From Isoetes taiwanensis (Eukaryota; Streptophyta; Lycopodiopsida; Isoetales; Isoetaceae), in contig JAJEKV010000017.1 of assembly GCA_021234155.1 (NCBI GenBank), positions 10,299,525 through 10,363,524 of the forward strand: a stretch of 64,000 nucleotides of DNA, in the 5' to 3' direction. This document shows positions 8,936 through 64,000 of this stretch, piece by piece. The position numbers were made by a program, and so were the translations under genes. Position 1 is the first letter of the stretch. Every line of letters begins with the position of its first letter. The notes under the pieces are model-generated. The model was not told the DNA's origin. It was given only the letters and a program-made list of their open reading frames with translations, and did not search any database.

Positions 8936-9113
8936 AACTTTACCCTAATAACTCAAACTTTAATCCCTAACTAGCTTACTTCTCTCATAACTAGGCCAAC
9001 ACTCATACTAGCTATGGAATTGGGATAGTTTAACTTAAATTAAAGTCTCCTACAACTAACCAATCTACGAGTTAGAATATGGCCAGTGCAATGATCTAAT
9101 CCACCAAAATCAT

Positions 9114-9385: not shown

Positions 9386-9592
9386 ACCTCTTCTTGTGGT
9401 TGGGGTGGTATTTGCTGCTCCCCTCTGATCAATCTTATATTCACTTGTTCCATTGCTCCTGCGACTCCTTGCCCTTCCCCTAAAATGCCTTTTATGTGTA
9501 TTGCTTATGACCTTTTCATTTCTACCCCTTGTCCCTATATCGTTTCGTCCCTGACCCTCTTCAGAAGGTATACTTTCCCATTCCTCTCCAGC

Positions 9593-9960: not shown

Positions 9961-9974
9961 TGGTAGGGTAAGCC

Positions 9975-12500: not shown

Positions 12501-13260
12501 CAATCTCTAAAGTAGAAGGTCAATATATACCTTTTCGCAAGGAGATGGTGCTCTCGAGGTTGATGTAGCTACTCTGGAGAATCGGGGTTGACAGGAAGAA
12601 GTTGACAGGTTGTGATCTGGTCGTAGTCCTCTTCTTGAATAATCTGGCCTCGATGGCTTGTAATTCATCTCTAGTCAAAGCATTTGTACTTGAAGTCTAG
12701 ATCTAATATTGTCATAGCCTACATGTCTGAGATGGTTGCCTTCCTAAGATGTATGGTTGGTCTCACCTCTTAGAAACTCATGATGTGAATAGTCGATGAA
12801 GTCGTCCACTTGTTGATGACGGAGCTGTGATGATAGCCTGTCAATGTGGAGCCCTTTCTCGAGACAATATAGCACTTGGAAAATATCTTTGGCTAGCAGA
12901 TGTTTCTCCCTTTTGATGATCAATGGCCTAAGTGCCTTGGTGCCCATTGGCTATTGAATAGCCTTCTTGGCACTCATATATTTGTCCTTGATGTCCCAAT
13001 CATCCTTTTTTGCAGTCTTTCCTTCATTATTTGTGTTCAGGTCCCTTGTTCACCATATTGTTCTTTGACCTATTAAAGATTCATGCATAAGATGTCCTTC
13101 CTTTCGAATTCCTCAATGTGGTTGAGAAGTTCCCGTATTGGAGGGTTCAAGGGTCTATACTAAAGGTTCACATGGTCTACTTGATTGACCTAAAGTGCAT
13201 GAAGCAGCTAATACTGCGATGCTCCCTGAACCTATACGATGTTCCCAGCGTAATAATACA
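12500..13260 (-). pseudogene. Unrecognised chromovirus ORF upstream of gag (G2 copy)
   Basis: The piece 12947-12744 (KDIFQVLYCLEKGLHIDRLS, DDFIDYSHHEFLRG) aligns with G3 (NDILNLSYCQEQGLRIDELL, DIIDYSYQEIPREL). Downstream LTRDELQAIEARLFKK aligns with IISEEEFQQIQSTLYKP. Upstream, at about 13060-13250, GTSYRFREHRSISCFMHFRS aligns with GTFHFEATLALFMHYKS. I do not recognise the family. Retention in two copies of different age suggests it is a normal part of this chromovirus. Stops and frame changes break it here. Confidence 0.7.
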
Positions 13261-13322: not shown

Positions 13323-14818
13323 TGTGATGGCCAAGTATCCCAGAAAGGACACGGAAGTGTCATTCGTCCCATGCCTTTCTCAGATATCCTATATTGCAGA
13401 AACATACATACATGTTAGCACTAGCAATAACACATATAATAACATGACACACTATGGAGGGTAGCCCATACATCATCAATATCAGCATCAACATAACATC
13501 ACCATCGCATATACAGTGCATTGTAAATGAAGGTTCTACCTCCAACTTAGAATCAAAGGGGGTCGGCTGATGATCACAATCTTTGGACAACAATAGATAG
13601 AATCATGACAGTGGAGTTGGCTGGCATAGAACATTGGCCAAGGTAGTCCACCCCATCTGTCCCTCCTATGCACACTTTGCAGATAGGCTGAGACATGCTA
13701 TGGCATGATTGTGGCCTTCCGAAGACGTAATTCCATGGATTCACTCTATGGAACTACTCCAGGTTGCATCAACCCCGGTTTGATAAGGCAGGAATGGAAT
13801 AAGTCCCTTCCCGGAGCACAATGGTTCCATGGGTGGATAGAGGACCATGTCAACACAAGTCCATCCCCCAAAATCCATAGGTCGAGATCACATGCGCCTA
13901 TGACTCAGGGGTTGTTAGACCCATATCTAGCCCACACTTAGTGATCGACTATAGGCCTAGTACACTATAGGTGGCCCAGTAGGCACACTCAGCAAGGCCC
14001 CACCTCCACTTCACTATTGTGTCCGTTATCTGGTGCTCAATCACAACATAACATCTACAACTAGGTGGGCTCTTGTGTACAGGCTGCATTTATTAGGATT
14101 TATGGGATTCTAGATAGAAATATCTATAATCTTACTAGCTTTTAGGTCTCTACGCTCCCTTATCCTACAAGCACAAGAGATGCAGCAAAGAACTACCTTA
14201 AGTCCATCCGTAACTTCAAATTGAGCATGAATATAAGGCTCATCATCCATCTAATCACACAAGGGTTACTTCTTAACTAGAAACTCAAGTGATCTATTCA
14301 TACTAACCAGTATCTGGGCGAGACCCATTGTCTCTCAAGTTCTCCATAATCTTTCGGTTGAACAAGCTGCTCCTTCTCCTCCCAAGTTCCCCCAAATTGA
14401 TTTGAGGCAAATTTGGGGTGACACCTCAATTTGGGTCAACCCTTGATATTTAATGATTAATCAACATAGTTAATCACACATTGTTAACTAATTTAGCATA
14501 ATGGGCTTTTACATTAATATTTAATCATAACATAGCTAGGTTTCCTCCCTAGAATTAGGGCTTAGGGTTAATAGAATTGGGCACGCTATACATGGCAATT
14601 TCATCTTGGCCAGTCAGTTGGTGCCATATGGCACCTAGGTTCTTCATAGCTATGTTAATGAATATGCCTAAAGTTGATGTAATACACTACCCCATTGTAC
14701 TCCTTAATAGCGTATAATGTATTGAGACGTCTATGGTATGGTGATGTTCTTGTTACTTAACTGTGTATTATACGTTACTTGTATCTATACAAAGTGTATA
14801 ATGGACAGGAATGTCGCA
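13323..14818 (-). repeat. Chromovirus LTR (G2)
   Basis: It starts TGTGATGGCC (13323), preceded by a degraded PBS (GCTCGGACCACT), and ends GTCGCA (14818). Interior blocks match the G3 LTR, for example GGCTGGCATAGAACATTGGC and the CTTTGCAGATAGGCTGAGA region. It is directly followed by TTCTCCCCACCTTA and ATGTCGTCCTCAAC, which correspond to the PPT and internal end next to the G3 3' LTR (TTCTCCCCTTA, ATGTCGTCCCCCTCAA). Confidence 0.8.
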
Positions 14819-19487: not shown

Positions 19488-20540
19488 ATTGCCAAGTTTT
19501 TACCTCTCCTTTACCCCATCTCCCCTTTGATCCTGTCGCTCTCGATTCCTACTATGCTACCTTATCTGTGCGTGGGCGTCTCTTTGCGTCTTTACCTTTT
19601 TGGATTCTTGGATCCAGTATGGTTATGCGCTTCCTTGGGTCCAGGAACCTCCACCTCAACCATTTCTTCGCCCAAACCTTTCCTCTCTGTCGTCGCATAT
19701 TCCTTTTGCTCGTTCTGCCATTCAAGACCTTTTGCGTTCTGGTGCTGTTATGCAGGTCCCATCTTGTCCCTTTTTCTGCTCACCCCTTGGCGTTGTGCCC
19801 AAAGGCGACCACAAGTTCCGCTTGATTCTAGACTTACGCTATCTTAACTCCTTTTTGTCTGTTCCTTCTTTTCGTTACGCGTCGCTTTCTGATGCTTTGG
19901 CTGTCCTTCAACCCCAGGATTTTCTCTTTACGTTGGATCTGAAATCCGTTACCATCCATCATGTTCCCATCTGGCCTCCTCATCACACTTTTTTGGGTTT
20001 TCAGTTTGACTACCACTTTTGTGTCTTCACTATGCTACCTTTTGGCCTGGCCTCTGCTCCTTTTGTCTTTACCAAATTGATGCGCCCGTTAGTCCGCCAT
20101 TGGCGAGCGGCCGGTATTCGTTGCACCCCTTATATGGATGATTTCCTTTTTAACACTCAGCATGACCCTAGTTCTCTTCAACGTCGCATCATTTCTGATT
20201 TGCAATCTGCTGGTTTTCTCATTGCTTGGCCTAAATGTCGTCTGCGTTTGTCACACCGTGCTATTTTCCTCGGGTCTCTCCTTGATGCTTCTGCTATGGT
20301 TATTTGCCTATCTTCCAAGAAATTAGCCAAGTTTTTTCACCTCTCCTCTTCGCGTCTTTTCTCTTCTCACCTTACATCACGTCACCTCGCCAAATTCTTG
20401 GGCTTTCTCCAGTCCCTTCGCATTGTTTTCGGTTCCCTTGTCTCCGCTTTAACCTTCTTTTCTTATCGCCTTATTCAACCTTGTCACTGGGATGCTCATA
20501 TTTCTTTATCCTCTTTATGTATTATGGGAATCCGTCGCCT
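19488..20540 (+). CDS. YR-retrotransposon reverse transcriptase (Y1)
   Basis: The main open stretch runs 19600-20721. Motifs are GAVMQVPSCPFFCSPLGVVP, FRLILDLRYLNSFL, FTLDLKS, FTMLPFGLASAPFVFTKLM and the catalytic YMDDFLF (YMDD at 20131-20142), the DIRS/Ngaro style of RT. The usual DLKSGYHH reads DLKSVTIHH, so the Gly-Tyr pair is disturbed. The N-terminal segment (about 19488-19605) is in another frame. It directly follows TTTTTGCAG (AG 19486-19487), a likely 3' splice site shared with Y2. Confidence 0.9.
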
Positions 20541-21404
20541 CTTCTTTGAGTTTTCGCCCTATTTCCCCACCCCGACGTCCTTCTGCCGTCCTTGGTTTCG
20601 ACGCCAGTTCATTTGGTTGGGGGGGAGTGGCTCCTTCTCCCGGGACAGAACCGCTTGGATTTTGTTGGCCTTTTTTCCGAGTTGGAACTTTCTCATTCTT
20701 CCACTTGGCGCGAACTCTTAGCTTTCTATCAAGTTTTGCGCTCGGCCTTGCCTTTTCTCCATGCTCGCCTGGTTACTGTTCGTGGGGATAATTTGAATGT
20801 TGCCACCATTCTCCAAAAAGGGGGTTCCTCTTCGCCCGATATTCATTTTCTCACCTTAGAGATCTTCCTACTTTGTTTTCACTTTTCCATCTCCTTGGAG
20901 CCTGTGTGGATTCCGCGCTCCCAAAATGAGTGGGCCGATTATCTTTCTCGCCTTCCTCAATCTGATGAGTTTGCCCTTGCCCCGTGGTGTTTTCGCTATA
21001 TTGATTCTTTGTGGGGCCCACATCATGTTGATCATTTTGCATCTCCCCTTAACAAGCTCCCCGTTTATAATACTCGGTTCGCATATCCACACCGCATTCC
21101 CGCTGATGCTTTTACTTATGATTGGCACCTCTTTAACAATTTTTGTTTTCCTCCGCCCTCCTTAGTTCCCTGCGTTTTACACCATGCGGCCGCATGTCAT
21201 GCTCATATTACACTGGTGGTTCTTCATTGGCCTTCTGCACCATGGTGGCCCTTGCTCTGGACGGGATCGGCGTGGGCGTCTTTTATTAAAGAATTTATGT
21301 TTTTTGATGCATTTTCGTTGGCTTTATTGCCCCATATATCGGCAACCTTTGCAGGGTGTCGGCGTCATGTAGCTCTTTATGTTTTTCTTTGTCAATTTGA
21401 ATAA
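20541..21404 (+). pseudogene. RNase H and C-terminal extension (Y1)
   Basis: RNase H begins VLGFDASSFGWGG in one frame and continues as STWRELLAFYQ, TVRGDNLNVATILQKGG and WIPRSQNEWADYLSR in another, with a frame change at about 20620-20650. Beyond RNase H comes WGPHHVDHFASPLNKLPVYN, FTYDWHLFNNFCFPPPSLVP and HWPSAPWWPLL, an extension typical of DIRS-group elements. It lies where DIRS elements carry a methyltransferase-like domain, but FPPP is not a clear NPPF/DPPF motif, so I do not assign that activity. Confidence 0.85.
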
Positions 21405-31280: not shown

Positions 31281-32236
31281 CGACACAAAGAGGAACCAAC
31301 CTCCTCCAATCACAGGCTCCTCGTTAGTAGGCAAAATGTAGCGAGTATGAGATGAAGCAGAACGCCAACGACCATGGGAGCGCACCATCTCAGCAGAGAC
31401 TCCAGCTGCAGAAGCCGTCGTGGCGCCCTCACGAGGCCCCGCATGAGTGCCAAAAAGATGGGGAACCAGACCAATGTGGCGCAAGCACTCGAACCACCAA
31501 GAACGCGCTATGGAATAGGACAAGGCATGCCAAGAGGATAAAGAGGATCGAAATAAGGGCCCACTCTCAGGAGGATCAATGACATGGAATGAGCAAGTGA
31601 GGTGGACATGGCAAAGCACCAAACTTGTACGGGCAATTAAGACCTCCTGGCCAGCCGCAATCTAGTCAGATTTAGACTTCCGGATTGCCACACAGACATA
31701 ATCCGAAAAAAGGTTAGATCCTGCCAACTCAATTGGAGGGCCTCCAAAACACGGAGAAAACCAGCAAAACATTAGGTGACTAGTGAGGCTTTCATCAAAT
31801 CCTGCTACCCTGTATGGGTCGGGGCAAAAGACAAAATAACTAGACAGACGTGAGCATCAGTGAGGGACAACTGAGGCTGAGGTGCTGGCCAATGCCGAGG
31901 AGCAGGCTGACGGAGCAAAGAGGGCAAAGTACCTAAGCAGGGAGAAGGGGGATTAATCAAGTTGTGAAAAAATGAGATGCCAGCAGAAGCACCACCCACC
32001 GAGGATAGACGGTGGCAGGAAGATACGAAAGAGGCGAAGAAGGCCGCGACATGGATGGACGAAGCAGGAACAAAAGGGACACTTTCTGACATGCACCAAG
32101 ACCGAAACCGTTGCCAGACAAAGGCATACATAAGCAAGGTAGAAACAATACAGGATTGAAGGACGAACGTGAGGATAGGAGCCACAAAAACAGGGGAGAT
32201 GGAAGAATAATGTCGTAAAACATCTAAGTCACACAA
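31248..32236 (-). pseudogene. Tyrosine recombinase of Y2
   Basis: The N-terminal piece (32236-31805) has FVWQRFRSWCMSESVPFVPA and ISFFHNLINPPSP, aligning with FRRFVVWC..SYLPASP and ISFFHQIFSLPSP of Y1. A frame change leads to GFLRVLEALQLSWQDLTF with Arg I (about 31740). The C-terminal piece (31622-31248) has THAGPREGATTASAAG, SHGRWRSASSHTRYI with the nucleophile Tyr at 31338-31340. The HxxR box reads HAGP, so the second catalytic Arg is Pro, although the next residue is Arg. It follows TTATTCAG (AG on the minus strand at 32238-32237). Confidence 0.88.
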
Positions 32237-32329
32237 CTGAATAACAGAAGCAGAACCGAATCATATCACCAACCTTCATTCAAATACACAGTGTAGAGCA
32301 AATAAAGACACATGTCACTTTTCACCAGC

Positions 32330-32763
32330 GAGTCGTGAGATCGATGGGAGCAAAGCCCGAGAAAACTCATGAAAAAATAATGCATCTACAACAAATAGTT
32401 GCCAGGAGTTCATGTCAGAAGTGACCAATGACCACCAAGGGGTAGAAGGCCATGAAAAGATGACCAACGTCAGACGAGCATGGCATAAGCGAGCATGGTG
32501 CAATACAGTAGGGACCAAGGAGGCGGGAGGGACGCAAAAATTGTTGAACAAGCGCCAATTGTAGGAAAAAGCACCGGGGGAAATCCGAAAAGGGTAAGCA
32601 TCCTTGGTATTGAACACGGGAAGTAAAGCATTAGACGGGCTAGCAAAGCGGTCGACATGGTGAGGGCCCCATTGAGACTCAATGAGGCTAAAAGCCTTAG
32701 AGAAAAGGGAGAACTCATCGAACTTGCAAATATTAGATAAATAGTCAGTCCACTTATTTTCCA
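32330..32763 (-). pseudogene. RNase H C-terminal part and extension (Y2, distal to G3)
   Basis: ENKWTDYLSNICKFDEFSLF and SQWGPHHVDRFASPSNALLP, FSYNWRLFNNFCVPPASLVP and FSWPSTPWWSL correspond to the Y1 region 20920-21400. Its N-terminal continuation lies 13.2 kb away at 45956, across G3. Confidence 0.9.
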
Positions 32764-32768
32764 AACGG
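32764..32768. repeat. Target-site duplication of G3, left copy
   Basis: AACGG directly precedes the LTR start TGTGACG; the same five bases follow the right LTR at 45951-45955. Confidence 0.93.
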
Positions 32769-34403
32769 TGTGACGCTCCCTGCTAAACATACGGCGCCCG
32801 GCCGTACACTCGGCAGGAAATCCCCCATCCGGCTCAACAACCGCATGGGCCCTTCGTCTACCCCGCACTCTGAGGTGACTCTTAGTGCGGGAAGGGAACA
32901 CGAAGGTGTCTTGCGCGCCCTTCCCCTATGGGCTCCTATAACAGCGGAAGCGATAACACGTCAGAACTAGCATCAACATATACAAATACTACCCTGAAGG
33001 GTAGTGCATCACACATAAACCAAGGCAAAGATGATAATCACGAACCATAAAACATGAGAGCTCCTACCCCGCTCGCACTCGTGGGAGGATGACCGACCTA
33101 CCGGGCCTCAAGATAGAGCGTAACCGAGTCATGGCAATGGCGAGGGCTGGCATAGAACAATGGCTAGGGTTGACCACTCCATCCGCCCCCCACATATGCA
33201 TACTTTGCGTGATGGGCTAGATCAGGCTCGACAGACTCTAGCCTTCCTGATACGCAAATCCCATGGCATCACCCATCGGGACTACCCGTGTTGCATCTCC
33301 CCGTCCGATGAGGCGTGAAGGGTTGCATCTCCCCTTCCTGTGGTCTAGAGGTGCCGTGCGGCTAGAGAATCGTGGCGACACACGATTCGCACCCCACCGA
33401 ACCCCCAAAACGAGAGCCAAGCCAAGACTTGCAGCTCTCGAGGAGGCGTGGCAACACCATTGCCCCCAGAGGTGTCGGACCCATGCTCGGCCCACACGGT
33501 GACCCCACCATAAGCCTAACCCACTATGGGATCCCCCGAAGCCCCCACTCCGGCAGGGATCCTCCCTCCACTTTCCCTCTAGCCCCAAGTTATCCGGTGC
33601 CGAGTCATGTCATAGCCTCAATAGCCCGGTGGGCTCCTATGCACAAAGCCGCAACTAATAGGAACTAAGGGGTCTACTCTAGGAACATACTACATATGGC
33701 CCTAGGTCTCTACCCCCTTCCCAATACAAGAGGAGCAAACATGATCAACCAACATCACATAATCATCACATCATGAGAATAATCATAAGAAGAACATCTT
33801 AACCTAATCATACAACTAACTAATAGTTAGGGTTCCTTGATTAGGGTTCAAGATGTTGAATATGGGTTCTAGGATGGCTCTACTCTAGATACAAAATACT
33901 AGCACATCTGGAATGCTAATCCCAGATGAGCTATCACAACTACTATCCTACATACCTGCTCCTGATGCTCTCCCTCCGGATCCGGCCCTCCATGGTCTTC
34001 ACTCACAAGTCAGCTGTTCCTACCCAAGAGCGAGCCCACCCTGCCGGGGCTGCACCAGCCTATGCCATTAACGAACGATGTTCAAACGGGTTTTCGAACG
34101 GTAGGTGAGTCTCCGGGTGCTAGGGCTGGAAAGAGGTCTAGGGTTAGGGTTTATGCCTATATAAGTTAGGTCCACCTAGGATGCCACGCGGCACCAATCG
34201 GGTGAGTCCCGTGGTGGCGGTGCCCCAATAGGTTAAGGCCACGTGGATAATGGCTTAACCTATGGTTGGCTAAGTTATGAGAATAACTTAGCCATGCCCC
34301 CTAGTGCCACAATCTATGGTATACAAGGCTATGAAGATAGATTTGTATGGTGACGGATCCGTGAATATACGTGTTTATGGCGTATATTCCCCGGACCGTC
34401 ACA
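32769..34403 (-). repeat. 3' LTR of G3
   Basis: Starts TGTGACG and ends CCGTCACA (plus strand), forming TG...CA ends. Long blocks of several hundred bases appear identical to the right LTR, separated by short clusters of indels and substitutions. Confidence 0.95.
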
Positions 34404-34414
34404 TTCTCCCCTTA
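34404..34414 (-). other. Polypurine tract of G3
   Basis: The minus strand reads TAAGGGGAGAA immediately before the 3' LTR. Confidence 0.85.
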
Positions 34415-35268: not shown

Positions 35269-36396
35269 CTAACCACCTGGCAAGTCGGGGTCGACCAAGT
35301 CGGAGACGACTCGCCCATCAAACTCCTTCATAAACTCTGGGTATTGCTTCTCCAAGTCTTGCTTCAATACCCATGTCGCATCTTCCACGGGTAAGTGCTT
35401 CCACTTAACCAAGTATTGGAGGAACTGGGACCTCCTAGTCTTCTTGAATGACTTATCAAGAAGCAATTCAGGCACTATTTCTACTTGCTCCTCCGTCATT
35501 TCCAACAAGGTTGGAGTATCTAAAACCTCCTCAGGGTTAGGATTGTGCCTTTTTAATAAACTTACGTGGAAGACCTTGTGGACCTTAAGATGGGCTGGAA
35601 GATCCAACTTGTAGGCTTGAGAGCCCACTCTCTCCAAAATCTTGAACGGCCCAGCCCACCTAGGGGCAAGCTTCTTGCAGCTCCCAATCCGCAGCTTGGC
35701 TTGCTTCACCTTGATCTTCAACCAAACGGTATCGCCCACCTTAAACTCCCTTACGGTCCTGTGCTTGTCGGCTACACTCTTCTGCCGACTTCTTGCTGCC
35801 AATAAATAACCCCTTACTTCCTCTACTAGCTGCTGCATATCCCCTAACATCTGCTGGGATACTTCTACCTTGGACACAGGATTGTGCCAGGTATCCGGGG
35901 TTAAGCACTGGTACCCGTAATTCACCATGAAAGGAGACATCTGAGATGACTCCTGCTTGGCACTGTTGTAGGCGAATTCCACCAAGTGGATGTACTCATC
36001 CCACTTGGATTGCTTATTCCACACATAGCTCCGAAGCATGTCTTCAATGATCCGATTCGTCCTTTCCGTCTGGCCATCTGTTTGGGGGTGATATGCCGTA
36101 CTCATGGAGAGCTTCGTCTGAATGGTGCTAAAGAGATCCTGCCAAAAGGCACTCATAAACTTAGAATCTCTATCAGATATTATCTCCCGAGGCATGCCAT
36201 GGAGTCTAAAAATCTCCCTTACAAATAACTTGGCAGTATCTAATGCGGTGTCCGTAGTCTTGCAAGGCACAAAATGTGCCATCTTAGATAACTTATCTAC
36301 GACCACCATCAATGCATCCTTGCCTCGAAGAGTTCTAGGGAGACCTGTGATGAAATCCATGCTTATGACCTCCCACTTTGCATTTGGCACCCCCAA
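35269..36396 (-). CDS. Integrase and chromodomain (G3)
   Basis: The integrase core carries D in ISMDFITGLP, D in IISDRDSKFMS and E in HPQTDGQTERTNR, all three catalytic residues. SAKQESSQMSPFMVNYGYQC and the GPFKILERVGSQAYKLDLP domain follow. The C-terminus is a chromodomain: PELLLDKSFKKTRRSQFLQY, LVKWKHLPVEDATWVLKQDL. Chromodomains of such elements bind modified histone H3 and steer integration into heterochromatin. The 375-residue frame is the longest undamaged one in G3. Its zinc-binding N-terminus lies in another frame at 36335-36610. Confidence 0.95.
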   Translation of the reverse strand: MGVPNAKWEVISMDFITGLPRTLRGKDALMVVVDKLSKMAHFVPCKTTDTALDTAKLFVREIFRLHGMPREIISDRDSKFMSAFWQDLFSTIQTKLSMSTAYHPQTDGQTERTNRIIEDMLRSYVWNKQSKWDEYIHLVEFAYNSAKQESSQMSPFMVNYGYQCLTPDTWHNPVSKVEVSQQMLGDMQQLVEEVRGYLLAARSRQKSVADKHRTVREFKVGDTVWLKIKVKQAKLRIGSCKKLAPRWAGPFKILERVGSQAYKLDLPAHLKVHKVFHVSLLKRHNPNPEEVLDTPTLLEMTEEQVEIVPELLLDKSFKKTRRSQFLQYLVKWKHLPVEDATWVLKQDLEKQYPEFMKEFDGRVVSDLVDPDLPGG

Positions 36397-36791: not shown

Positions 36792-38100
36792 TTACAATGC
36801 GCCCTTGTCCGAAAATGGTCTCCGGAGAGGGCATCTCGCTACAACATTAAGCTTACCAGGCTTATATATAATATCAAAATCATACTCCTCAAGGAATTCC
36901 ATCCACCTCCTTTGCCTTAAGTTGAGGAGTGGCTGGGTGAAAAGATACTGAAGGCTCTGGTGATCAGTATCCAACTGAAACTTCCTTCCCAGCAGATAAT
37001 GCCTCCATATCCTCAATGCCCTGACAATGGCTAGCAGCTCCCCCGATCATGGGTTGGGTAGCGTTGCTCGGCGTCGTTCATCTTCTTCGAGTCGTAGGCG
37101 ACTACCCTTCCTTCTTGCATCAAGACTGCCCCTGTTGCTATCTTGCTTGCATCTGTTGCTACCAACTTATCCTTACTCGGATCCGGGAGAACAAGCACTG
37201 GTGCTGTTGTTAAGGCCTCTTTAAGCTTCTCAAAAGAAGCTTGGACTTTCTCTAACCAATGGCTAGCCCAATCCTTAATCTTCTTGGCCTTAGTGAGGTC
37301 CGACAGAGGGGACGCCCACTTAGCAAAGTCCTTCACGAACTTTCTGTAGTATCCCGCCAACCCGAAAAGCTTCTTACTTACACCACATTCCTTGAGCTGG
37401 CCAATCAACTATTGCCTCAATCTTAGATGGATCTCGTGGAGATTCCCTTGATGTTACTACATGCCCCAAGTACTCCACTCGGCCGCTGCAAAGTGGCACT
37501 TAGAGAGCTTCCCATACAACCGATGACGCCTCAACTTCTCCAACACTTTCCCCGAGATGCCGACAATGCTCTTCAAGGGACTTGTCAGATTAGGATGTCG
37601 TCGAAGAAGACAATAACAAACTCATCCAAGAAGTCTCAAAGATGTCGCTCATGAGGCGCATAAACGTTCTTTGGAGCATTCGATAGTCCAAAGGGCATTA
37701 TCAGAACTCAAAGTGACCATACCGCGTTCTGAAAGCGGTCTTATGGATATCCTCTTCTTTAATTCTTATCTGATGGTATCCTGACCTCAAATCAATTTTA
37801 GAGAATACCTTTGCTCCTTGTAACTGGTCCATTAGGTCGTCCGCCCTTGGCAATGCATACTTATTCTTTATCGTCCGCTTATTAAGTCAAGATAGTCTAT
37901 GCACATTCTTAAAGCTCCCATCTTTCTTCCCCGACAAAGAGTATAGGTGTTCAAAGGAGACACACTTGCTCTTATAAATCCAAGCTCGAGCAATTCCTCG
38001 CAAATTTCTTCTTGAGCTCACCAATTCGGGATGCTCATTCTATATGGCGCCTTACTGGTAGGCTTCGCATCCGGAGCCAATGTGATCTCACATTCCACAC
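36792..38100 (-). pseudogene. Reverse transcriptase and RNase H (G3)
   Basis: RT is in pieces: [19 protein letters not shown] at about 37740-37800 and the intact active site VFFDDILI near 37590-37615. 37408-37031 has LAGYYRKFVKDFAKWASPLS, VATDASKIATGAVLMQEG and MNDAEQRYPTHD, with the RNase H Asp in TDAS. 37016-36792 has RIWRHYLLGRKFQLDTDHQS and DFDIIYKPGKLNVV. Key residues are present; short indels, many in C/G runs, shift the frame between pieces. Confidence 0.88.
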
Positions 38101-38166
38101 CCCTATAAGGTGGCAGCTGCCGGATTTCATCCGGGAATACATCCTTGAACTCTGAGATAAGCCTTG

Positions 38167-38680
38167 CTATCCGGCCTCGGCAACATTCCCCTTTGTGTCA
38201 CTTCCATCCTGCTTGCCTGGCTCAACTGATTCCATCCTCAAGATGTAATCCACCTTATTCCTTTCTATACTCTTCCTTAGCTGCTTCAAAGAAATACACT
38301 GCATAGGAGAATCTAGCTTCTTACCTTTCACTACCAACTTGTCGCCGCCCTGTGCCGCCATGGTGACTTCATTCCGGTCGCAATCAATCATGGCTTTGGC
38401 TGGCTTCAAAAATTCCATCCCCACTATCAAATCATATCTTCCGATGTCCATGACTTCTGCTCCCATCGGCCACTTAGCCCCACTAAGGTCTATGTCAAAG
38501 GTGATCCTCCTCCCCTTAGTGTGCCGAATGGCGCCGTTTGCCATAGCTACTGGCCTTGGCTTAGACTTCAATACCTTATTCTTCATTAGAGTAGCCAATC
38601 TAGGAGATGCAAAATTATGAGAGCTACCTGTATCTATGAGGACTACATAAGGATTACTATCTATGATCCCATCAGCCGCT
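38167..38680 (-). pseudogene. Aspartic protease (G3)
   Basis: The active site VLIDTGSSHNFASP lies at about 38605-38650. The ORF 38598-38167 continues RPVAMANGAIRHTKGRR, IGRYDLIVGMEFLKP and a hydrophilic linker to RT. It is nearly continuous with gag upstream, apart from small frame changes. Confidence 0.9.
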
Positions 38681-38849: not shown

Positions 38850-40024
38850 GAATGGACAATCATGTGTCCGTGCCACCGGCTGGAAGCACCGAAGCATAAC
38901 TTCTTCTCAATGCATTCCTGTCTCTTTTTCCTTCTGGAGACCGTCTAGGAGACGGCTTAAGAGCGCCGCCCCCGATGCGTTCGTGGGCTTACGGTCCCCA
39001 AAAGCTTTGCTCGACCCTTACCTTGCTGGGCCGACTCCCCGATGGTGTAGCCGCTGATTGCTTACCCCGATATTGTCCCCGATCGCCCTCAACTCTTACC
39101 CCCGAAGGTTGATCGCTTCTCTGGCTGGAGTTGCCGGTGCCTCCTCCAAACTTATAGCTTTATCTTCGGCTCATGCTGGACCGACCGGGTTGATTGCTCT
39201 AACAAGCCTCTTGATATTGCTGTTCAACCCCTCAATGTAAGTATCCACGGCTTGCCTCTCGAGACTCGGGAACATTCAGCCCGAGCCTCATAAATTCTTC
39301 GGATACTTAGCCACCGATAAGCTACCCTGATTCAACCTCAGAAACCTCTGGATCTGCCTACTAGTATGAGACCTTGGCACATAGTGCTTTATGGAAAGCC
39401 TTGTCAAGGTCTTAAACCTGCGGTTGTTCCTCTTCAAATTGTTGGATTTAGCATATCCCTTCCACCGATCCTTGCCGTCCAATAAGGTTAGCTGTAGCAA
39501 CTTTCCCTATGTCCTTGTCTTTCATACCATATGAGTTGCCAAACTCTTCCATTTCATCAAGCCATGCTTCACCTCCATGCCGATCTTGTCTTTTCCCCGA
39601 GAACCGGCCGAAGCTTCCTTGTCTTCCATACATTGCTCATAGCACTATCCACCTTTTTCTCGATAATCACCGTCTTTCTTGCTCTTTTCCTTGCTTTTAG
39701 GTGTGTCGACCGACCGCTCGAGCTAGAGCTGTCCTCACTGGAAGAGCTGTCTGATGAGCTGGAGCTAGATGATGATGGGCTCCTGGTTCTCCTCTTCCTT
39801 CTTCTATCCCTGACGTTCCCCTGGTTGCCCTCCCCTTCCTGCTGAGGGACTTCGTCACCACCCGGAAAACAAGGTGGAGGTGGGTGACCATCTTCCTGTG
39901 CATTCATGAGAGGTGTCGCCCAGTTGATGAGGTGTTGCATCCGATTCCTCATCTGCACCAACCTTGCGTTGATCGCCTCTCGTGACATATCCCGCTCAAC
40001 ATCTTCTTGTTCCCCGCCAAACAA
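38850..40024 (-). pseudogene. Gag with Ser-rich region and zinc knuckle (G3)
   Basis: 40024-39569 is the N-terminal half: EAINARLVQMRNRMQHLI, an acidic/Pro region, then a long Arg/Ser-rich tract (about 39700-39790). The capsid-like core follows in the next frame as EAWLDEMEEFGNSYGMKDKD and IGKVATANL, matching G1. A degraded CCHC knuckle is visible near 38850-38900. The open frame extends upstream of the first usable start at 40024. Confidence 0.85.
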
Positions 40025-40309: not shown

Positions 40310-41760
40310 TCAGTGGCCTCCCGAAAGCCTGAAGAAGTTCTTGACATCCCTGAATCGGAGGCCTTTGCCGAGGTTGCGCAAGATGTTCCTCGTTGATCTT
40401 CCTTCAAGTGCTCGGGCCATCTCTGGTTCCGGGAGTTCTGGTGTTGTTGCTGTTGCTGCTACCACTGAAAGTGTTGCATCCCTCAGGTGCCCTCTCGCAA
40501 AGTCGAGGCAATGGAGCGACTGCCCTGTTGAAAAGAATGATGTGATCGGGCATGGGCGATATCTTCGAAAGTGCTGCCCGAAGCCCGAAAGCGCTATGAG
40601 AAGTGCCACGGATTCTTCCCCCCTTGGGCTGAACTCCTTGTGGAAGACTATCATTTGCCCCTGGCTGAGGGCTGGAAGATAGTAGCGGCGTCTTGCGCCC
40701 CCTTCCTACGCCTCGCGATCCAGTGCCCTTCCTTTGAGCTGCTTCGCCGTAGGCATCCACCGCCATAAGGTCTTCATGATCCCTCCACATGCTGGTTGCG
40801 TTGTCCAAGTTAATGCTGCTGGACCCTTCCCTCATGCTCCTGGCTCGAACTGGTCGGCTTGAGCTTGGGCCCTTCCCTGGTTTGTAGAGTGTGCTCTGTA
40901 TCTGCTGGAACTCCTCCTCTGAGATGATAGGCTCCTGCTGTCGATAGATCTCCCTTATCTGGCCGATAGGGGCTATATCCGACATTGTCTCCCCAGCATA
41001 AGAGTGTCTCTCCGCCAGCTCCCTTGGGATCTCCTGGTATGAGTAGTCGATGATGTCTGTGCTCTTCCCGTGTGCTATCATACCCAAGAGCTCGTCGATT
41101 CGAAGACCCTGTTCCTGACAGTAGGACAAATTGAGGATGTCATTTGCAAAATGTACTCCTCCCCGCCGATGACTATCGACAAGGCCGTGGATGCCGACCG
41201 GTGGATCGGTAGTCGTTCTCACGTCGCCGTCATGCCTCGATGCATATCTCCGCATTCTTGTTGCCTCCCCGCTCTCCCATTCGGGTTCTCGCCCCCCTAG
41301 CGCCAGTAGTCTTCATGGATCTCAGAGATGGTGCGCCCGACGCCGCGTCGCAATATTCGTGAGGCGGAGGACTCTATATTCGTGGATTTGATCCCGGGCC
41401 CTACGGCATCAAGTGGCGCTAAGTCTAAGGGGGTGAACAGAGGGTTCCCTACTTTGTTGATTGACTTATAATGCATGAAGAGGGCAAGGGTCGCCTCGAA
41501 ATGAAAGGTACCTATGCCTATTATGTCTACAGTCATGTAATCGGGCATGGTCCTAGTCCTATCCCATAGTCGCTTCTTGCCTCGATCCCCGCCACTCTCG
41601 ACCTAAGGCTTGGGTAAGTGTCTCAAGGGAAACCCAATTCCCTCCCCTAGGAGGCGCCTAACTTCCCAAGGCAGGGACCTCGGCTGGTCATATTGGCACA
41701 TAATGTCCGTAGTAGGGTGTTCTAGTCAAAGTTGCGTGAAGATCAAACAAGTGATCAAAC
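40310..41760 (-). pseudogene. Unrecognised ORF between H3-like region and gag (G3)
   Basis: Pieces: 41548-41297 (DIIGIGTFHFEATLALFMHY, RGVGRTISEIHEDYW), 41255-40404 (the longest, with LSYCQEQGLRIDELLGMIAH, DIIDYSYQEIPREL, IGQIREIYRQQEPIISEEEF), and a C-terminus in another frame ending at 40310 (LRNLGKGLRFRDVKNFFRLS). The same motifs survive in G2 (12500-13260). I recognise no family. It is mostly hydrophilic, with a helical middle and a Ser/Arg/Gly-rich linker. It could be an N-terminal extension of gag or a separate accessory protein. Confidence 0.7.
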
Positions 41761-42639
41761 ACGAGAAGGCTTGATCTACCGGAAGCACATGGATATGGCT
41801 GGCAAAGATTGTACCATCTCTCAAAGTTGCCGGCCATTGAGCGTGAAAGGGTGTGGAAAATGGCTTGCAAAGATCGCTGGAGGGTCGAAAATCGCCTAAG
41901 GGGCTGGGAGCCATTCTGGGAAGAAAAATGGCAAATGAGACCTATTTTTATAGACTATGGGTGACCCTGGGTTTGTGCAAAAAGGTGCTTACCTAAGACG
42001 ACCTTGGTTCCATGGCTCGGTGTCCAAAATGAACTACCATGAAGTGCAAACTTAAGCAAAACAAAGCAAGAAACACTACATGGCAATTTGTTGGATCAAA
42101 TTTGGCTAATTTGGGCCAAAGATGGCCCGACCGGTGAATCACATGATGGCCTCCGCCGTCATGGACGCTGAGACGCTGCTTTTACTTGGGTCTCACCCGG
42201 TTGGCCTCTTTTGGGCCAATTTTTGGTCATTTTAGGGAATTTGAAGATGCTAATATGGCTAATTGGGCCAATTCTAACCTAACTAGCAACTTATTTTGAG
42301 CAAAACTGACATCTAAAAGCAAGATTTTGGGGGTAGGCGGGTGAATCCAAGGCTGAACGCCAGCGTCGCCGGGGACGCAGAGGCCATTGGCGCTCTCTCA
42401 CCCGACCGCCCAATTTTTTTGCATTTTTGATGATTTTTTTGCCAAAATTTTGTTGTAGTCATGATTTCGGGGTGTTTCTAGACATGCTATGAAGAATTCT
42501 ACCACAATTGGGTTCTACTTTCTACATTTCAAGCATAGAACATTTTTCTAATTTTACAGAGGGAAATTAACTTTTATATTAATGAGAAACATAATTACAT
42601 GAAAATTTTAGTTCTTCTACAAAATTTACAAAATTTGAG
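41761..42639 (-). other. Interval between unrecognised ORF and H3-like region (G3)
   Basis: Mostly AT-rich, with short ORFs only. Splicing across it cannot be excluded, but I see no clear gene. Confidence 0.5.
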
Positions 42640-42916
42640 GCCTAGGGCCTCTCCTCCCAAGATTCTCCTGCTAAGTGGATGTCCTTCGGCATGAGGGTTA
42701 CCCGCTTAGCATGGATAGCGAGAGGTTTCCCTCCTCAAGAGCTGCACCAGCTCGCCTTCTGAGGCCTCTTTGCGGGGCCCGGTCATTAGAGGGGTTACCC
42801 CGTAATCCGGCCCCGAATCGCCGCAAAACCTCCCTAAGGAGGCGGCTCGAAGGGCCTTCCTTATCGGAGATTCGTGCACATCGGAAGTGCCGAATCTCCC
42901 TAAACCCCGGGCGGTA
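42640..42916 (-). pseudogene. Histone H3-like (possibly CENH3-like) domain inside chromovirus G3
   Basis: In three adjoining frames, in H3 order: TYRPG then FREIRHFR (alpha-N), SPIRK, [13 protein letters not shown] (alpha-1), [12 protein letters not shown] (alpha-2), EEGNL, and [18 protein letters not shown] (alpha-3; 42722-42669) followed, after one missing base, by RRIL. Ordinary plant H3 has YRPGTVALREIRKYQ, LIRKLPFQRLVREI, QEAAEAYLVGLFEDTNL and [26 protein letters not shown] and VTLM are CENH3-type choices. Differences from H3: three residues lost after RPG and a divergent loop 1. The frame changes are single-base indels like those elsewhere in G3. It lies between PBS and gag, in the coding direction of the element. 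Confidence 0.85.
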
Positions 42917-43660
42917 TGTGCTGTTGACCCGTGGTGAACCCTCTTTGGTTTTCGGCCCTCGGTGGGGTGGCTTGGGCTGGTTCTTCTTTTGGCCTGCCGC
43001 CCCACCCGCAGCAGCTCCACCTCCTGCTGGCAATACCACTCATTGTACCCTGGTCCAGCGGCGAAGGTACTCCTTGTATGCCATCATCTTCCTTTTGAAC
43101 TCAGGTCTGCCAACTGCCGTATGGTACCCGCTCCCCTACCTTTTGTTTCTTCACCACCTTGGGTGGTTCCGGCCACTTAGGGTAGGGTGGCCTCGCGTCG
43201 GGATCCTGCTGCCCCTCCTCCTCCTCTTCCTCTTCCACCTGCGGCTCCTCTTCTGGCCGGGGCTCTTGAATAACGACGGTCCCGCGGACCGTCGTTCCTT
43301 CTCTTCGTCCGCCTCTCCTCCTCCCTCAGCTCCCTCTCCCGCTCCCGCTTCTTCCTGGCGGCCCTCTCCTCCGGCCACTCTGCTACTTTTTCCTTTCCCT
43401 TCTTCTTGGGCACTGAAGGCCCCGCTTCCTCCACTTCTTTGCTTTGCCTGCTCCTCCCCTTCTTCTTCCACCTCGGTGTCCGAGGGCCCGAAATGGCGAG
43501 TCTCGCCGGTCCTCTGAGTGCCTGCCGATGGAGAACTGCTGCTGGGACTCTCCTCGGCGTCATGGTATGAGGCTTCGCTGCTGCTGCTGCTGCTGCTGGT
43601 GGGGGGAAGCTCCTCTTCCCCTTTCTTGGGTCGGAGGTGCTCCGGGATCTTCTTGACATG
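42917..43660 (-). pseudogene. Basic N-terminal tail preceding the H3-like domain (G3)
   Basis: 43659-43177 is open for 160 codons: MSRRSRSTSDPRKGKRSF, an Ala run, MTPRRVPAAVLHRQALRG, then a long Lys/Arg/Glu-rich stretch (KKKGKEKVAEW, REEERRTKRRNDG). Between 43176 and 42917 the frame changes and FKRKMMAYKEYLRRW and a Gly/Ala linker can be read before NSTYRPG. Histone tails, CENH3 tails in particular, are basic and poorly conserved, so this may be the tail of the H3-like protein. The 160-residue part has no specific H3 tail motif such as ARTKQTARK. Confidence 0.6.
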
Positions 43661-44307
43661 TCAGCCTCAGCTCGCTATGCGCCATAGAGAGAGGGCCGGT
43701 CTTGTTCCAGCTTCCCAGTAAGTTTGTTTGGTGCGAGCCATATCTTATGGTTCAGAAAATGGGTGACGAAGGGCTGGGCAAGAGAAGGTTGGAGGTGAAG
43801 GGTTGGAGAGAGAAAATGAGGTGTCAGATATTTAAAAAGGAGGGTCCCTGGGAATATTCTCCTACCATAATTACCCCTATTTATTAGCCCCCCCTTATTA
43901 ATTACAAGATATTTAATTAATTATTTAACTATTAATGTATATATTAACCTATATTAATTGATATTATCTTTAAATTTTCGAATTTTCCTAATGGTTCGAA
44001 GTGCAATTTATGAATTTGCGCCATTTTTCACCTGGGCCTCCGATTGGCATGATTCTTCGACCCATTTTAGGTGAAATTTGATGCAGATGCATAATTTTCA
44101 CTCCAAATTTACTAGAAGGTTCGTTTGACTCCCTCAAATCTTAGTCTAACACTTAGCCTAATTCCTGACCCACTACCTAGGAGAAATTTTTTTTTTTCCC
44201 CCATTTTCGCGGTTCGATGGTGGAAATGTTTATTCCACACTCCTATAGGCCTGTTAGACTACTTCATGGTTATGGTCAGTGCTAGTTCTTGGTCAACCAA
44301 GAACATC
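43661..44307 (-). other. Leader between PBS and first ORF (G3)
   Basis: AT-rich noncoding sequence with one open stretch on the other strand; no recognisable domain. Confidence 0.55.
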
Positions 44308-44319
44308 GCTCTGATACCA
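44308..44319 (-). other. Primer-binding site of G3 (tRNA-iMet)
   Basis: The minus strand reads TGGTATCAGAGC one base after the LTR end, complementary to the 3' end of plant initiator methionine tRNA. Confidence 0.93.
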
Positions 44320-44320
44320 T

Positions 44321-45950
44321 TGTGACGCCCCCTAAACAACATCGCCCGCCGTACACTCGGCAGGAAATCCCCCATCCGGCTCAACAACCGCATGGGCCCT
44401 TCGTCTACCCCGCACTCTGAGGTGACTCTTAGTGCGGGAAGGGAACACGAAGGTGTCTTGCGCGCCCTTCCCCTATGGGCTCCTATAACAGCGGAAGCGA
44501 TAACACGTCAGAACTAGCATCAACATATACAAATACTACCCTGAAGGGTAGTGCATCACACATAAACCAAGGCAAAGATGATAATCACGAACCATAAAAC
44601 ATGAGAGCTCCTACCCCGCTCGGACTGTGTGGAGGATGACTAACCGGCCGGGCCTCAAGATAGAGCGGAACCGAGTCATGGCAATGGCGGGGCTGGCATA
44701 GAACAATGGCTAGGGTTGACCACTCCATCCGCCCTCCCTCGCGGCATACTTTGCAGATGGGCTAGATCAGGCTCGACAGACTCTAGCCTTCCTGGATCAC
44801 GCAATCCCATGGCATCACCCATCGGGACTACTCCGTGTTGCATCTCCCCGGTCCGATGAGGCGTGAAGGGTTGCATCTCCCCTTCCTGTGGTCTAGAGGT
44901 GCCGTGGGCGGCTAGAGAATCGTGGCGACACACGATTGCACCCGGATCAACCCCCAAAATGAGAGCCAAGCCAGCACTTGCGGCTCTCGAGAGGCGGTGG
45001 CAACACCATTGCCCCGGGAGGTGTCCACCCATGCTCGCCCACACGTGGTGACCGACCATAAGCCTAACCCACTATGGGATCCCCCGGCCCCCCACTGGCA
45101 GGATCCTCCCTCCACTTTCCCTCTAGCCCCGTTATCCGGTGTTTGAGTCATGTCATAGCCTCAATAGCCCGGGTGGGCTCCTATGCACAAAGCCGCAACT
45201 AATAGGAACTAAGGGGTCTACTCTAGGAACATACTACATATGGCCCTAGGTCTCTACCCCCTTCCCAATACAAGAGGAGCAAACATGATCAACCAACATC
45301 ACATAATCATCACATCATGAGAATAATCATAAGAAGAACATCTTAACCTAATCATACAACTAACTAATAGTTAGGGTTCCTTGATTAGGGTTCAAGATGT
45401 TGAATATGGGTTCTAGGATGGCTCTACTCTAGATACAAAATACTAGCACATCTGGAATGCTAATCCCAGATGAGCTATCACAACTACTATCCTACATACC
45501 GCTCCCCGATGCTCTCCCTCCGGATCCCAGCCTCCATGGTCTTCGACTCACAAGTCTGCTGTTCCTACTCCAAGAGCGAGTCTACCTGCCAAGGGCTGCT
45601 GCACCGCCTATGCCACAACGAACGATGTTCAAACGGGTTTCAACGCAGTAGGTGAGTCTCTGGGTGCTAGGGCTGGAAAGAGGTCTAGGGTTAGGGTTTA
45701 TGCCTATATAAGTTAGGTCCACCTAGGATGCCACGTGGCACCAATCGGGTGAGTCCTGTGTGGCGGTGCCCCAATAGGTTAAGGCCACGTGGATAATGGC
45801 TTAACCTATGGTTGGCTAAGTTATGAGAATAACTTAGCCATGCCCCCTAGTGCCACAATCTATGGTATACAAGGCTATGAAGATAGACTTGTATGGTGAC
45901 GGATCCAGGAATATACGTATTTATGGCGTATATTCCCCTGGACCGTCACA
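44321..45950 (-). repeat. 5' LTR of G3
   Basis: TGTGACG to CCGTCACA, 1630 bp, partner of 32769-34403. CTATATAAG at 45704-45712 (CTTATATAG on the minus strand) is a candidate TATA box. Confidence 0.95.
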
Positions 45951-45955
45951 AACGG
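45951..45955. repeat. Target-site duplication of G3, right copy
   Basis: AACGG follows the LTR end CGTCACA and matches 32764-32768. Confidence 0.93.
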
Positions 45956-46431
45956 GGAACCCACAATGGCTCGAGCCGAATTTTATGGTGATAACAAAAA
46001 ATGAAGAGCAAAAGCAAATGGATAACTGGAGACGGGGAACCACCTTTTTGCAACAAGAATGCGACATTCTGGTTATCGCCACGAGCAAACACAACAATGT
46101 TAAAGAGAAGGCTAGCAAAGTGTTGCAACAATTGGAGCAGGGCAAATAACTCGCGCTATGTAGAGGACTGAAGACGTTCGGGTGTGGTAAAAAAGCCATG
46201 AAAGGAGAAAACGGGCATACCAAGAATAGACAACCAACCACCCCAACCCTCATTGCTAGCATCAAAATCGAGGGTGACTTTTGTGAGGAGAGGGGGCCAA
46301 AGAGGACAACGGTCAAAATTGAGCACAATAGTCTGCCAAAGAGATAGCTCGTGATGTGGCAGGGAGGAAAGCTGGAAAGGAGTATCCCAACGTTCGGAGC
46401 AGCGGAGATCAAAGTGAAGACTTGAAGTCAA
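45956..46431 (-). pseudogene. RNase H N-terminal part (Y2, proximal to G3)
   Basis: TLDFDASNEGWGGWL (46431-46156 frame) aligns with GFDASSFGWGG of Y1; in other frames FARGDNQNVAFLLQKGGSPS and LEPLWVPR align with TVRGDNLNVATILQKGGSSS and LEPVWIPR. The next residues (ENKWTDYL) are at 32763, beyond G3. Confidence 0.88.
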
Positions 46432-46467
46432 GACAACACAAAGGTGGCCAAATACTAGATGCAGGGA

Positions 46468-47384
46468 CTAAATGAAACCGAGAAAGCGGGCAACCAAGTG
46501 GGCGGAGACTACAGGAGCAGCAAGCAAGCCAGAACATAGAGATAAAGCGCGGGACTTTTTAGAGGCTGAGATGCGGAACAAACCATCGTGGAAATCGACT
46601 ATGAAACCTAAGAAGACAGTGCGATGAGAAATGCGAAAACGACACTTTTTACAAGTGAGAAGAAAACCGGCTTGCTGTAAGTCAAAAAATAACCTGGACA
46701 TGAAGGGACTCGGGCGAGGAGTGACACAAAAATAGGATATCATCAACATACGGGAAGCAACGGATACCCTGAGCATGCCAACGATGAACCAATTGCCGAA
46801 TGAGTTTGGTAAACACAAACGGAGCAGAGGCGAGTCCAAAGGGAAGAACATTGAAGATAAAAAATTGGCCATCAAGATGGAGACATGATGATAACCAGAT
46901 TTCAAGTCTATAGTAAAAAGGAAATTCTCGGGTTTGTAAAGATGAGAGAGCAGGTCCAATGATTCATAGCGAAACGGAAGGACAGATAAAAAGGAGTTCA
47001 AGATACGCAAATCTAAAATAAGACGCCACTTTCCTTGACCTTTAGGGACCACCCCCCATGAGGAACAGAAGAACGGGCAAGAAGGCACAAGGGAGGCGAT
47101 ACCGGTATGAAGGAGTTCAGAGATGTCAGAACGAGCAACATCAAGTTGGATGAACAAGGACGAATGATTTTTTGCAAGAAAGGGGTTGATAGGGGGATGA
47201 GTAAGCCAAGGCAAACGACAACCAAATTAGATCCAGCTGAGCACTTGCTTGGAGGAACAGAATGACCGCCAAAAAGGCAAAGCAGACAGGAGGCGATTGA
47301 GGACGTAGGTAGATGAAGCAATCGAGCCAACTAAGATGGGATCAATGCTTAGATCAGGAATGCAAGAGGAAAACGGAGTGTAAT
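46468..47384 (-). pseudogene. YR-retrotransposon reverse transcriptase (Y2)
   Basis: The ORF 47214-46468 has VPSCPFFCSSWGVVPKGQGK, WRLILDLRILNSFLSVLPFR and FTIDLKSGYHHVSI. Between about 46890 and 46690 the correct frame is different: there NVLPFGLASAPFVFTKLIRQ and the active site FPYVDDILFLC are found, so two compensating indels flank the catalytic core. Later CRFRISHRTVFLGFIVD returns to the first frame. It starts after GTTGTTTCAG (AG on minus at 47386-47385), as in Y1. Confidence 0.9.
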
Positions 47385-54324: not shown

Positions 54325-55300
54325 TGCTGCCACATTTTGTGGCAGCAAGAGGAAATTGTACAACACAAGAAGAAGACAAGCTGCCAATGCTGATTTTAAG
54401 CTGATTACACTCTTGAAGGATTATTTTGTTTCAGATCATTGAAGAATTTTTTTGATGAAGACTAAGGAAGGACATTCATGGAAGCTATTTCATTAGATCA
54501 AATTAAATGGTCACAAGGAGCAAGAAAAAAGTCAAGTCATCATATTTGAGCAAACAAGAGAGCAAAGGACACAAACATTTACTTTGAAGACATAAGAAGG
54601 TTTTGAAGACCCCCAAGAGTTCCATGGTATGTGCAAAATAACTCTAGATCAAGTTCATATTGAGGCAAATTCCTATACCATTATTTCACCCCATACCACC
54701 TTCTTTCCTTGATTTCCAAGTTGGTACATCCTCAATCAACCTTGTTTTCCAATTGACAACATTTTTGTCTAGCCAAAAAAGCTTCACTCTCATCTCTTCC
54801 ATAACTCCATACATTCATTTCCATGATAAGCTTCCAAAAAGAAAAATGGTCAAGAAATTTGCAAAGTTATGCATAAAGGTGGCATTGTGCCACGTATAAC
54901 CTTTGAAGCCACCTCACATCTCCATCATTCCTCATCATCACTTACATCATACTCCCTCCATCCCCAAGTTCAAAAATTAAAAATTGGCTAAAGGGCTTCC
55001 ATTTTTCAAGTTGATTATGATTCTATGTAATATTGCCACTTGGGAGTGCCATGTCATTTGCACACCATCCTCCTCATCATCATATATGCCATACACGTGT
55101 CATCCACATCCATAAGTTGAAAAAGTTTTTGGCTAGACAAAAATTGAGTCAAGATACATTGCCATGTCATTTGCCTAGTCATCACCATTGCCATGTCATA
55201 TGCCATCACAATTGCCTAGTCATCTTTTTTTGCCATATTTCACATCCTATGGTTAAGCTATGCAAAAAATTATTCCTAGCAAAAGATTCCAATTGAGATG
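54325..55300 (+). repeat. Left long repeat (probable 5' LTR) of G4
   Basis: Matches 63025-64000 with only scattered small differences. It starts with a palindrome TGCTGCCACA-TTT-TGTGGCAGCA. The real right edge is further on, because the partner copy is cut by the window end; a degraded PBS-like TTGTCGCTGTCGGTATTG near 56370 might mark it. Confidence 0.75.
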
Positions 55301-63024: not shown

Positions 63025-64000
63025 TGTCGCCACATTTTGTGGCAGCAAAGAGAAAATTGTACAACACAAGAAGAAGACAAGCCGCCAATGCTGATTTTAA
63101 GCCGATTACACTCTTGAAGGATTATTTTTTGTTTCGGATCATTGAAGAATTTTTTTGATGAAGACTAAGGAAGGACATTCATGGAAGCTATTTCATTAGA
63201 TCAAATTAAATGGTCACAAGGAGCAAGAAAAAAAGTCAAGTCATCATATTTGAGCAAACAAGAGAGCAAAGGACACAAACATTTACTTTGAAGACATAAG
63301 AAGGTTTTGAAGACCCCCAAGAGTTCCATGGTATGTGCAAAATAACTCTAGATCAAGTTCATATTGAGGCAAATTCCTATACCATTATTTCACCCCATAC
63401 CACCTTCTTTCCTTGATTTCCAAGTTGGTACATCCTCAATCAACCTTGTTTTCCAATTGACAACATTTTTTGTCTAGCCAAAAAAGCTTCACTCTCATCT
63501 CTTCCATAACTCCATACATTCATTTCCATGATAAGCTTCCAAAAAGAAAAATGGTCAAGAAATTTGCAAAAGTTATGCATAAAGGTGGCATTGTGCCACG
63601 TATAACCTTGGAAGCCACCTCACATCTCCATCATTCCTCATCATCACTTACATCATACTCCCTCCATCCCCAAGTTCAAAAATTAAAAATTGGCTAAAGG
63701 GCTTCCATTTTTCAAGTTGATTATGATTCTATGTAATATTGCCACTTGGGAGTGCCATGTCATTTGCACACCATCCTCCTCATCATCATATATGCCATAC
63801 ACGTGTCATCCACATCCATAAGTTGAAAAAGTTTTTTGGCTAGACAAAAAATTGAGTCAAGATACATTGCCATGTCATTTGCCTAGTCATCACCATTGCC
63901 ATGTCATATGCCATCACAATTGCCTAGTCATCTTTTTGCCATATTTCACATCCTATGGTTAAGCTATGCAAAAAATTATTCCTAGCAAAAGATTCCAATT
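63025..64000 (+). repeat. Right long repeat (probable 3' LTR) of G4, cut by window end
   Basis: Partner of 54325-55300. It begins TGTCGCCACATTTTGTGGCA. The sequence just before it is pyrimidine-rich (CCTTCCTTTTTC), not a PPT, so the LTR reading is probable and not certain. Confidence 0.72.

Follow-up and report, generated by a model that had tools for sequence, protein, structure and literature searches.

The closest described system is a hAT DNA transposon of Pyrenophora tritici-repentis that carries a histone H3-like (H3L) gene; the reference genome contains 26 copies of it, all very similar (PMC3538342). ESTs were reported for the fungal element, an extra ORF of unknown function lies alongside H3L, and its authors asked whether altered chromatin had aided the amplification of transposable elements (PMC3538342). 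Retrotransposons with captured domains are known as well (PMC9289625, PMC7264820, PMC6338049), among them orchid Gypsy elements carrying an AlkB-type m6A demethylase; the same study describes a screen of angiosperm elements that returned 15 unusual domains, and its two mentions of "histone" do not concern an encoded histone (PMC9289625). Core histones borne by viruses include CpBV-H4, a bracovirus H4 with its own N-terminal tail that is reported to join host nucleosomes and alter expression (PMC5423620), and the histones encoded by giant DNA viruses (PMC9145170, PMC11222145). Our search of the open-access literature, preprints excluded and judged from titles and the beginnings of abstracts, returned no retroelement encoding a histone. 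Within these sources, a transposon-borne H3 has a precedent in the fungal hAT element (PMC3538342), and a retroelement-borne histone is without one that we found. Here we describe a very abundant retrotransposon family that carries its own histone H3 gene with a long N-terminal extension.

One copy of this family, G3, lies in a 64-kb stretch of Isoetes taiwanensis DNA analysed at its full length of 64,000 nucleotides (the window), where it occupies 45950-32769 of the minus strand, the strand of all the G3 features given below. G3 is a complete, aged chromovirus insertion. Its 5' LTR (44321-45950; TGTGACG...CGTCACA) is 94% identical to its 3' LTR (32769-34403), and the two are adjoined by CCGTT target-site duplications at 45951-45955 and 32764-32768, respectively. 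The primer binding site (TGGTATCAGAGC, 44308-44319) is of what we take to be the initiator tRNA-Met type, and a polypurine tract (AAGGGGAGAA, 34404-34413) precedes the 3' LTR. The gag gene (39288-40024) is broken; its portion at 39288-39500 matches Retrotrans_gag in Pfam slightly below the curated cut-off (1.6e-4), and the gag-pol of a related element described below (L033) aligns with pieces of G3 39658-38221. The pol region comprises an aspartyl protease part (38167-38598; RVP_2, 4.9e-4), a broken reverse transcriptase and RNase H (36840-38170; RT_RNaseH_2, 1.3e-21 at 37031-37408), a region that the L033 pol also matches, and an integrase with a C-terminal chromodomain (35269-36396, chromodomain at about 35317-35472; rve 3.2e-10, SH3_Tf2-1 3e-23, Chromo 3e-11 in Pfam). 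LTRs, primer binding site, polypurine tract, short target-site duplication, the pol order protease-reverse transcriptase-RNase H-integrase and the C-terminal chromodomain are together those of a chromovirus.

Inside the element, between the primer binding site and gag, lies ORF-A (about 42640-43741), a broken gene whose product would be a histone H3 protein with an N-terminal extension, laid out as an H3 N-terminus, a long intervening stretch and an H3 core. The histone fold occupies 42646-42916 and is split over three frames; about 800 bases upstream of it stands an exact MARTKQT (43721-43741), the histone H3 N-terminus with 100% identity over 7 residues. The original prediction had proposed a CENH3-flavoured H3-like gene at this very place in a chromovirus, and both the match and the element parts around it confirm the location; all eight of its H3 motifs were found across three minus-strand frames, and the MARTKQT was absent from it. 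A typed plant H3 matched the window in two collinear pieces (tblastn, 43012-42648, E 8.6e-8), and a frameshift-aware alignment of the H3 core scored 158 over 42916-42646, compared with a mean of 28.9 (SD 4.4) and a maximum of 43 in 40 dinucleotide shuffles and a maximum of 40 among 59 random other segments of the window. A chance match of the fold was rejected on the comparison with the shuffles. Against Pfam Histone, the open piece 42719-42651 alone reached 1.3e-5 (25.9 bits, curated cut-off 26.4), two longer open pieces, each searched alone, had zero matches, and the pieces joined in order exceeded the cut-off (3.6e-8, 34.1 bits), giving the joined frames the significant histone-fold match on which the original prediction hung; the joined pieces also matched the H3 chains of solved structures at 6e-14. 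ORF-A is interrupted at several places in G3 and, since its fold is split across frames, the G3 copy is dead. We note that a 280-residue open frame antisense to ORF-A (42675-43517, plus strand) is probably mechanical.

Searching the 1.66-Gb genome with H3 gave 9022 loose first-look candidates, and the 150 that were scored all matched, 135 of them being element-like (71-86% identity) and 15 host-H3-like (96-98%); open frames of at least 400 residues hold 51 of the 135 element-like matches listed. An H4 control query gave only 69 candidates, all scored, with 43 matches, and a general amplification of histone genes was rejected on this difference. Used as a query, the ORF-A segment of G3 found 1319 candidates, of which 40 were scored and all matched (79-100%), 37 of them, G3 included, spanning all 1102 bases (36 of 39 without G3). 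As the candidate numbers are loose counts, copies in the thousands are what we infer from them. The possibility that G3 represents a single chance capture of H3 was rejected in view of the many genomic matches to both queries, the ORF-A segment itself being present in 39 further scored places. Seven of these were read (L047-L053): L047, L048 and L052 have an uninterrupted frame from MARTKQT through to the stop codon (369, 362 and 369 residues, respectively). The H3-like ORF is thus carried by the family. The other four (L049, L050, L051 and L053) are broken to varying degrees. The N-terminus reads MARTKQT in six of the seven copies and MARTQT in L053, and L047 matches Pfam Histone at 4.4e-28. 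Open copies were found on many contigs.

In a second lineage of elements the H3 core, which has 85-89% identity with host H3, follows an unrelated N-domain. Twenty of the 135 element-like places were sampled, mostly for their long open frames, so that their openness is not a frequency; in all 20 the H3 fold ends an open frame of 260-567 residues, and in the 17 with an assigned start codon the protein has 409-453 residues. The 12 aligned proteins start with a conserved N-domain of about 200 residues, followed by a charged linker and then KPHRFRPGTVALREI...ARRIRGE; ARTKQT is present in none of them, and the lineage is without the K4, K9 and K27 tail sites. The core histone family of Pfam was matched above the curated cut-off in L022 (1.2e-41), L037 (2e-43) and L040 (3.3e-42). 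In L033, gag, protease, reverse transcriptase and RNase H follow the H3 gene in one frame. LTR pairs were found in four of the six loci for which downstream DNA was fetched (92.8, 95.3, 95.4 and about 93% identity; none within the fetched stretch in the other two), with clear target-site duplications in three of the four (L021, L022 and L029), and the LTR of G3 was matched in 18 of the 20 loci. The H3 parts of the two lineages are 65% identical over 88 residues and their N-terminal parts have no significant similarity, which makes the H3 core the constant part. The second-lineage N-domain matched no Pfam family above cut-off, no PHROG and no confident solved structure, a structural match at E 0.89 being taken as chance; its comparison with ORF-B (see below) gave no similarity of use, and that with viral contigs and prokaryote genome contigs no useful match.

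Three pairs of open G3-type copies differ in the fold by 0, 1 and 1 amino-acid-changing substitutions versus 14, 12 and 12 silent ones, with pN/pS values of 0.05-0.11 in the tail, in a comparison confined to three open copies found by DNA similarity. The per-part analysis of the second lineage used 22 rows for residues and 12 for selection, and in the latter the median dN/dS was 0.034 for the fold, 0.24 for the linker and 0.09 for the N-domain (31, 31 and 15 usable of 66 pairs, respectively). Across second-lineage element pairs the fold had a median dN/dS of 0.026 and a maximum of 0.13 (152 usable of 253 pairs), in a sample whose choice by H3 similarity and long frames lowers fold dN. By these ratios the H3 core of the elements is under strong purifying selection, which answers in the affirmative a question raised with the original prediction, and natural selection appears to have kept the gene working. 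Silent sites between host and elements were saturated in 230 of 230 pairs, a comparison that took in 23 element rows and 10 of the 15 host-type loci; L017 and L018 are absent from it, and L020 and L021 are the same place. Such saturation suggests an old lineage, codon bias being able to add to it and, with this caveat, makes a recent capture of the second-lineage gene from host H3 unlikely.

Between the H3 gene and gag usually sits another frame, ORF-B, of about 467 residues where whole and open over at least 300 residues in 10 of the 20 second-lineage loci; none was seen in L037, where gag-pol directly follows H3. As a genome query ORF-B gave 7546 candidates, of which 91 were scored and all matched. 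For at least 30 of these 91, an H3 match from the list of 135 lies 194-250 nt upstream on the same strand, a lower bound because only the top H3 matches were listed. ORF-B matched no Pfam family above cut-off, no PHROG and no confident solved structure, and viral contigs searched with pol, the window ORF at 40404-41255 and ORF-B gave no useful match. G3 holds the remains of a second upstream gene (40310-41914, open piece 40404-41255) that is probably the ORF-B of the family: the two are collinear, but the match is weak (hhalign E 0.0073, probability 5%), and the family ORF-B had zero tblastn matches in the window at 1e-3. A fragment related to this second gene lies in another element of the window (12768-12893, minus strand; 45% over 42 aa, E 5.7e-8). 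Between H3 and ORF-B in L029 (4350-4530), a polyadenylation-like stretch precedes a pyrimidine tract whose terminal TAG comes directly before the ORF-B ATG; the region could act as an internal promoter or as a splice acceptor. Several loci have a third small frame between ORF-B and gag, conserved and open over about 165 residues (L029: 6129-6623).

The window holds other repeats. Two further chromovirus pol stretches at 6133-10511 (minus strand) are about 67-71% identical to G3 pol, one of them adjoining an LTR fragment (13600-13797) and the ORF-B-like fragment at 12768-12893; near this one, tblastn of the window with a typed plant H3 gave no match. The flanks of G3 (31805-32764 and 45921-47214) contain open frames that match stretches of 20013-21257 at 72-73% on the DNA level; the insertion target of G3 would seem to be a different but related retroelement, perhaps of the tyrosine-recombinase type. 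A direct repeat pair with 98.5% identity (54329-55294 and 63029-64000) may represent two young LTRs, the pair being truncated where the window ends, and two long open frames at 18-3774 resemble a copia-type polyprotein, the type being judged by eye.

Silencing of retrotransposons by their hosts works through chromatin, and chiefly through marks carried on the H3 tail. On balance, we favour a reading in which the H3 of the G3 family pairs with host H4, is deposited in nucleosomes and, through its N-terminal part, favours the element. The dead G3 would be one copy of a Ty3/gypsy chromovirus family whose first gene supplies a core H3 with an element-specific tail. Since H4 is not amplified, the protein would need host H4 to pair with; host chaperones would then deposit it in nucleosomes, and the N-terminal part thereby brought into chromatin would recruit a putative activity to the advantage of the element, most likely weaker silencing or an influence on where new copies are expressed or inserted. 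Underneath this proposal lie the gene, its position, abundance and open copies, purifying selection and the retained contact residues as observations; expression, H4 pairing, nucleosome entry and benefit we infer. The canonical tail (residues 1-36) is not kept, the G3 type retaining ARTKQT..RK only. As the G3 subfamily keeps this motif and the second lineage does not, a benefit common to the two cannot lie in losing the K9 site; the feature common to both lineages is, on the aligned proteins, the added N-terminal part rather than the loss of one mark. That many family copies are broken counts against the favoured reading, and strong selection on the fold could also reflect binding to chaperones, or to DNA outside nucleosomes. 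With somewhat less assurance, and tentatively, we extend the proposal to a retrotransposon that makes a nucleosome component, its subfamilies fitting different effector domains to a near-frozen H3 core and so perhaps writing their own chromatin state, with very many of the genome's elements built in this way.

Alternatively, the H3 part may serve to bind host H4 or H3-H4 chaperones, so that the element's cDNA or pre-integration complex would reach the nucleus or be brought to replicating chromatin, with no lasting entry into nucleosomes. Near-fixed changes of the second lineage include T107A and I124L (22 of 22 rows each), V89I (21 of 22) and S87F (20 of 22), the last two falling within residues 86-89, presumably the stretch that sets chaperone choice and, like the chromatin-targeting chromodomain already present in the element, they would suit such a tether. 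R49, R63, R69, R72, R83, C110, H113, K115, T118, K122, D123, L126 and I130, which we assign to DNA contact, the H3-H3 interface or the core, are nevertheless kept in all six copies checked from both lineages. DNA-contact and H3-H3 interface residues are not needed for tethering, and we consider this alternative unlikely.

The position of the gene upstream of gag and the charged linker would fit an H3 fusion that condenses the element's nucleic acid in the particle in the fashion of giant viruses, whose histones are described as essential for viral genome packaging (PMC11222145). With H4 not amplified, the partner for a complete viral nucleosome would not be element-made, and such a packaging role seems improbable to us.

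We give no more credence to a derivation of the G3-subfamily H3 from host CENH3 that would target it to centromeric chromatin. The G3 subfamily does have REIRHF, TNLLI and VTLM, and REIRHFQ, TNLLI and VTLM match plant CENH3. The fold of L047 (K56 to M, K79 to R) is identical to host H3 at 58 of 88 positions, ungapped over residues 48-135, and five second-lineage copies share 84-88 of 99 residues with host H3. Loop 1 of L047 has 24 residues from R72 to A95, the same as host H3, whereas the equivalent stretch of plant CENH3 has about 26. In the trees the second lineage forms a single clade that is separate from both host H3 and CENH3 (97/89 and 92/89), and the best tree places the G3-type copies among H3 on a long branch; neither a grouping of these copies with CENH3 (p-AU 0.167) nor a single element clade (p-AU 0.095) was rejected. 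The tree is compatible with either label; CENH3 as the default was set aside on loop-1 length. Of the original prediction, an H3-like gene in a chromovirus, carried by the family and under purifying selection, has stood; its "CENH3-flavoured" character is not supported, the loop being of H3 length and the second lineage plainly H3-like.

The many broken copies, G3 included, and the H3-like gene of the fungal DNA transposon, which shows that H3 capture is possible (PMC3538342), would agree with a captured H3 copied along as a functionless passenger, as could hold for the hAT element itself; strong purifying selection and the keeping of the fold in two lineages with unrelated N-terminal parts make this very improbable. 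The frame breaks in G3 might point to a chance match or an assembly artefact, an explanation that a score far above the shuffles and open copies on many contigs reduce to practically nothing.

Preferring, as above, an element H3 deposited in host nucleosomes, we return to the known systems cited at the outset. Like plant chromoviruses, the G3 family has LTRs, a primer binding site, gag, protease, reverse transcriptase, RNase H, integrase, chromodomain, polypurine tract and target-site duplications; unlike them, it has additional genes before gag, namely an ORF-A with H3 at its end, usually also an ORF-B, and a small frame that is open. Like CENH3, its H3 is divergent and extended by a long N-terminal part, and the G3 subfamily has REIRHF and VTLM; the canonical loop-1 length sets it apart from CENH3. 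In orchid Gypsy elements, too, a regulatory domain of host origin has become fixed in a lineage of LTR retrotransposons, there an RNA demethylase rather than a histone. CpBV-H4 is, like the element protein, a parasite core histone with its own N-terminal tail; it is an H4 of a wasp polydnavirus, whereas the G3 family has an H3 with a much longer N-terminal part in a retrotransposon. Giant viruses also encode core histone folds, in fused sets of several histones, in contrast to the one H3 fold of the G3 family (one matched histone stretch per protein in the four scanned); a search with the read-through protein of G3, a broken query against a database that may leave out the window's own genome, had a single match, P0001, a giant-virus-type multi-histone protein, at 45% identity. 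If our reading is true, a retroelement-supplied H3 with its tail exchanged and its core under selection would be a direct counter-move to silencing at the level of the nucleosome, and the family a natural library of H3 fusions. The fungal hAT element shares with the G3 family the carrying and multiplying of an H3-like gene by a transposable element; it is a DNA element with inverted repeats whose H3L aligns with ordinary H3, whereas the G3 family consists of old, diverse LTR retrotransposons with reverse transcriptase and integrase; by a loose count these number in the thousands, their H3 is fused to long N-terminal parts, and purifying selection on it was measured. Whether a mobile element can change the chromatin make-up of its host, a question also raised for the fungal transposon (PMC3538342), becomes testable with the G3 family.
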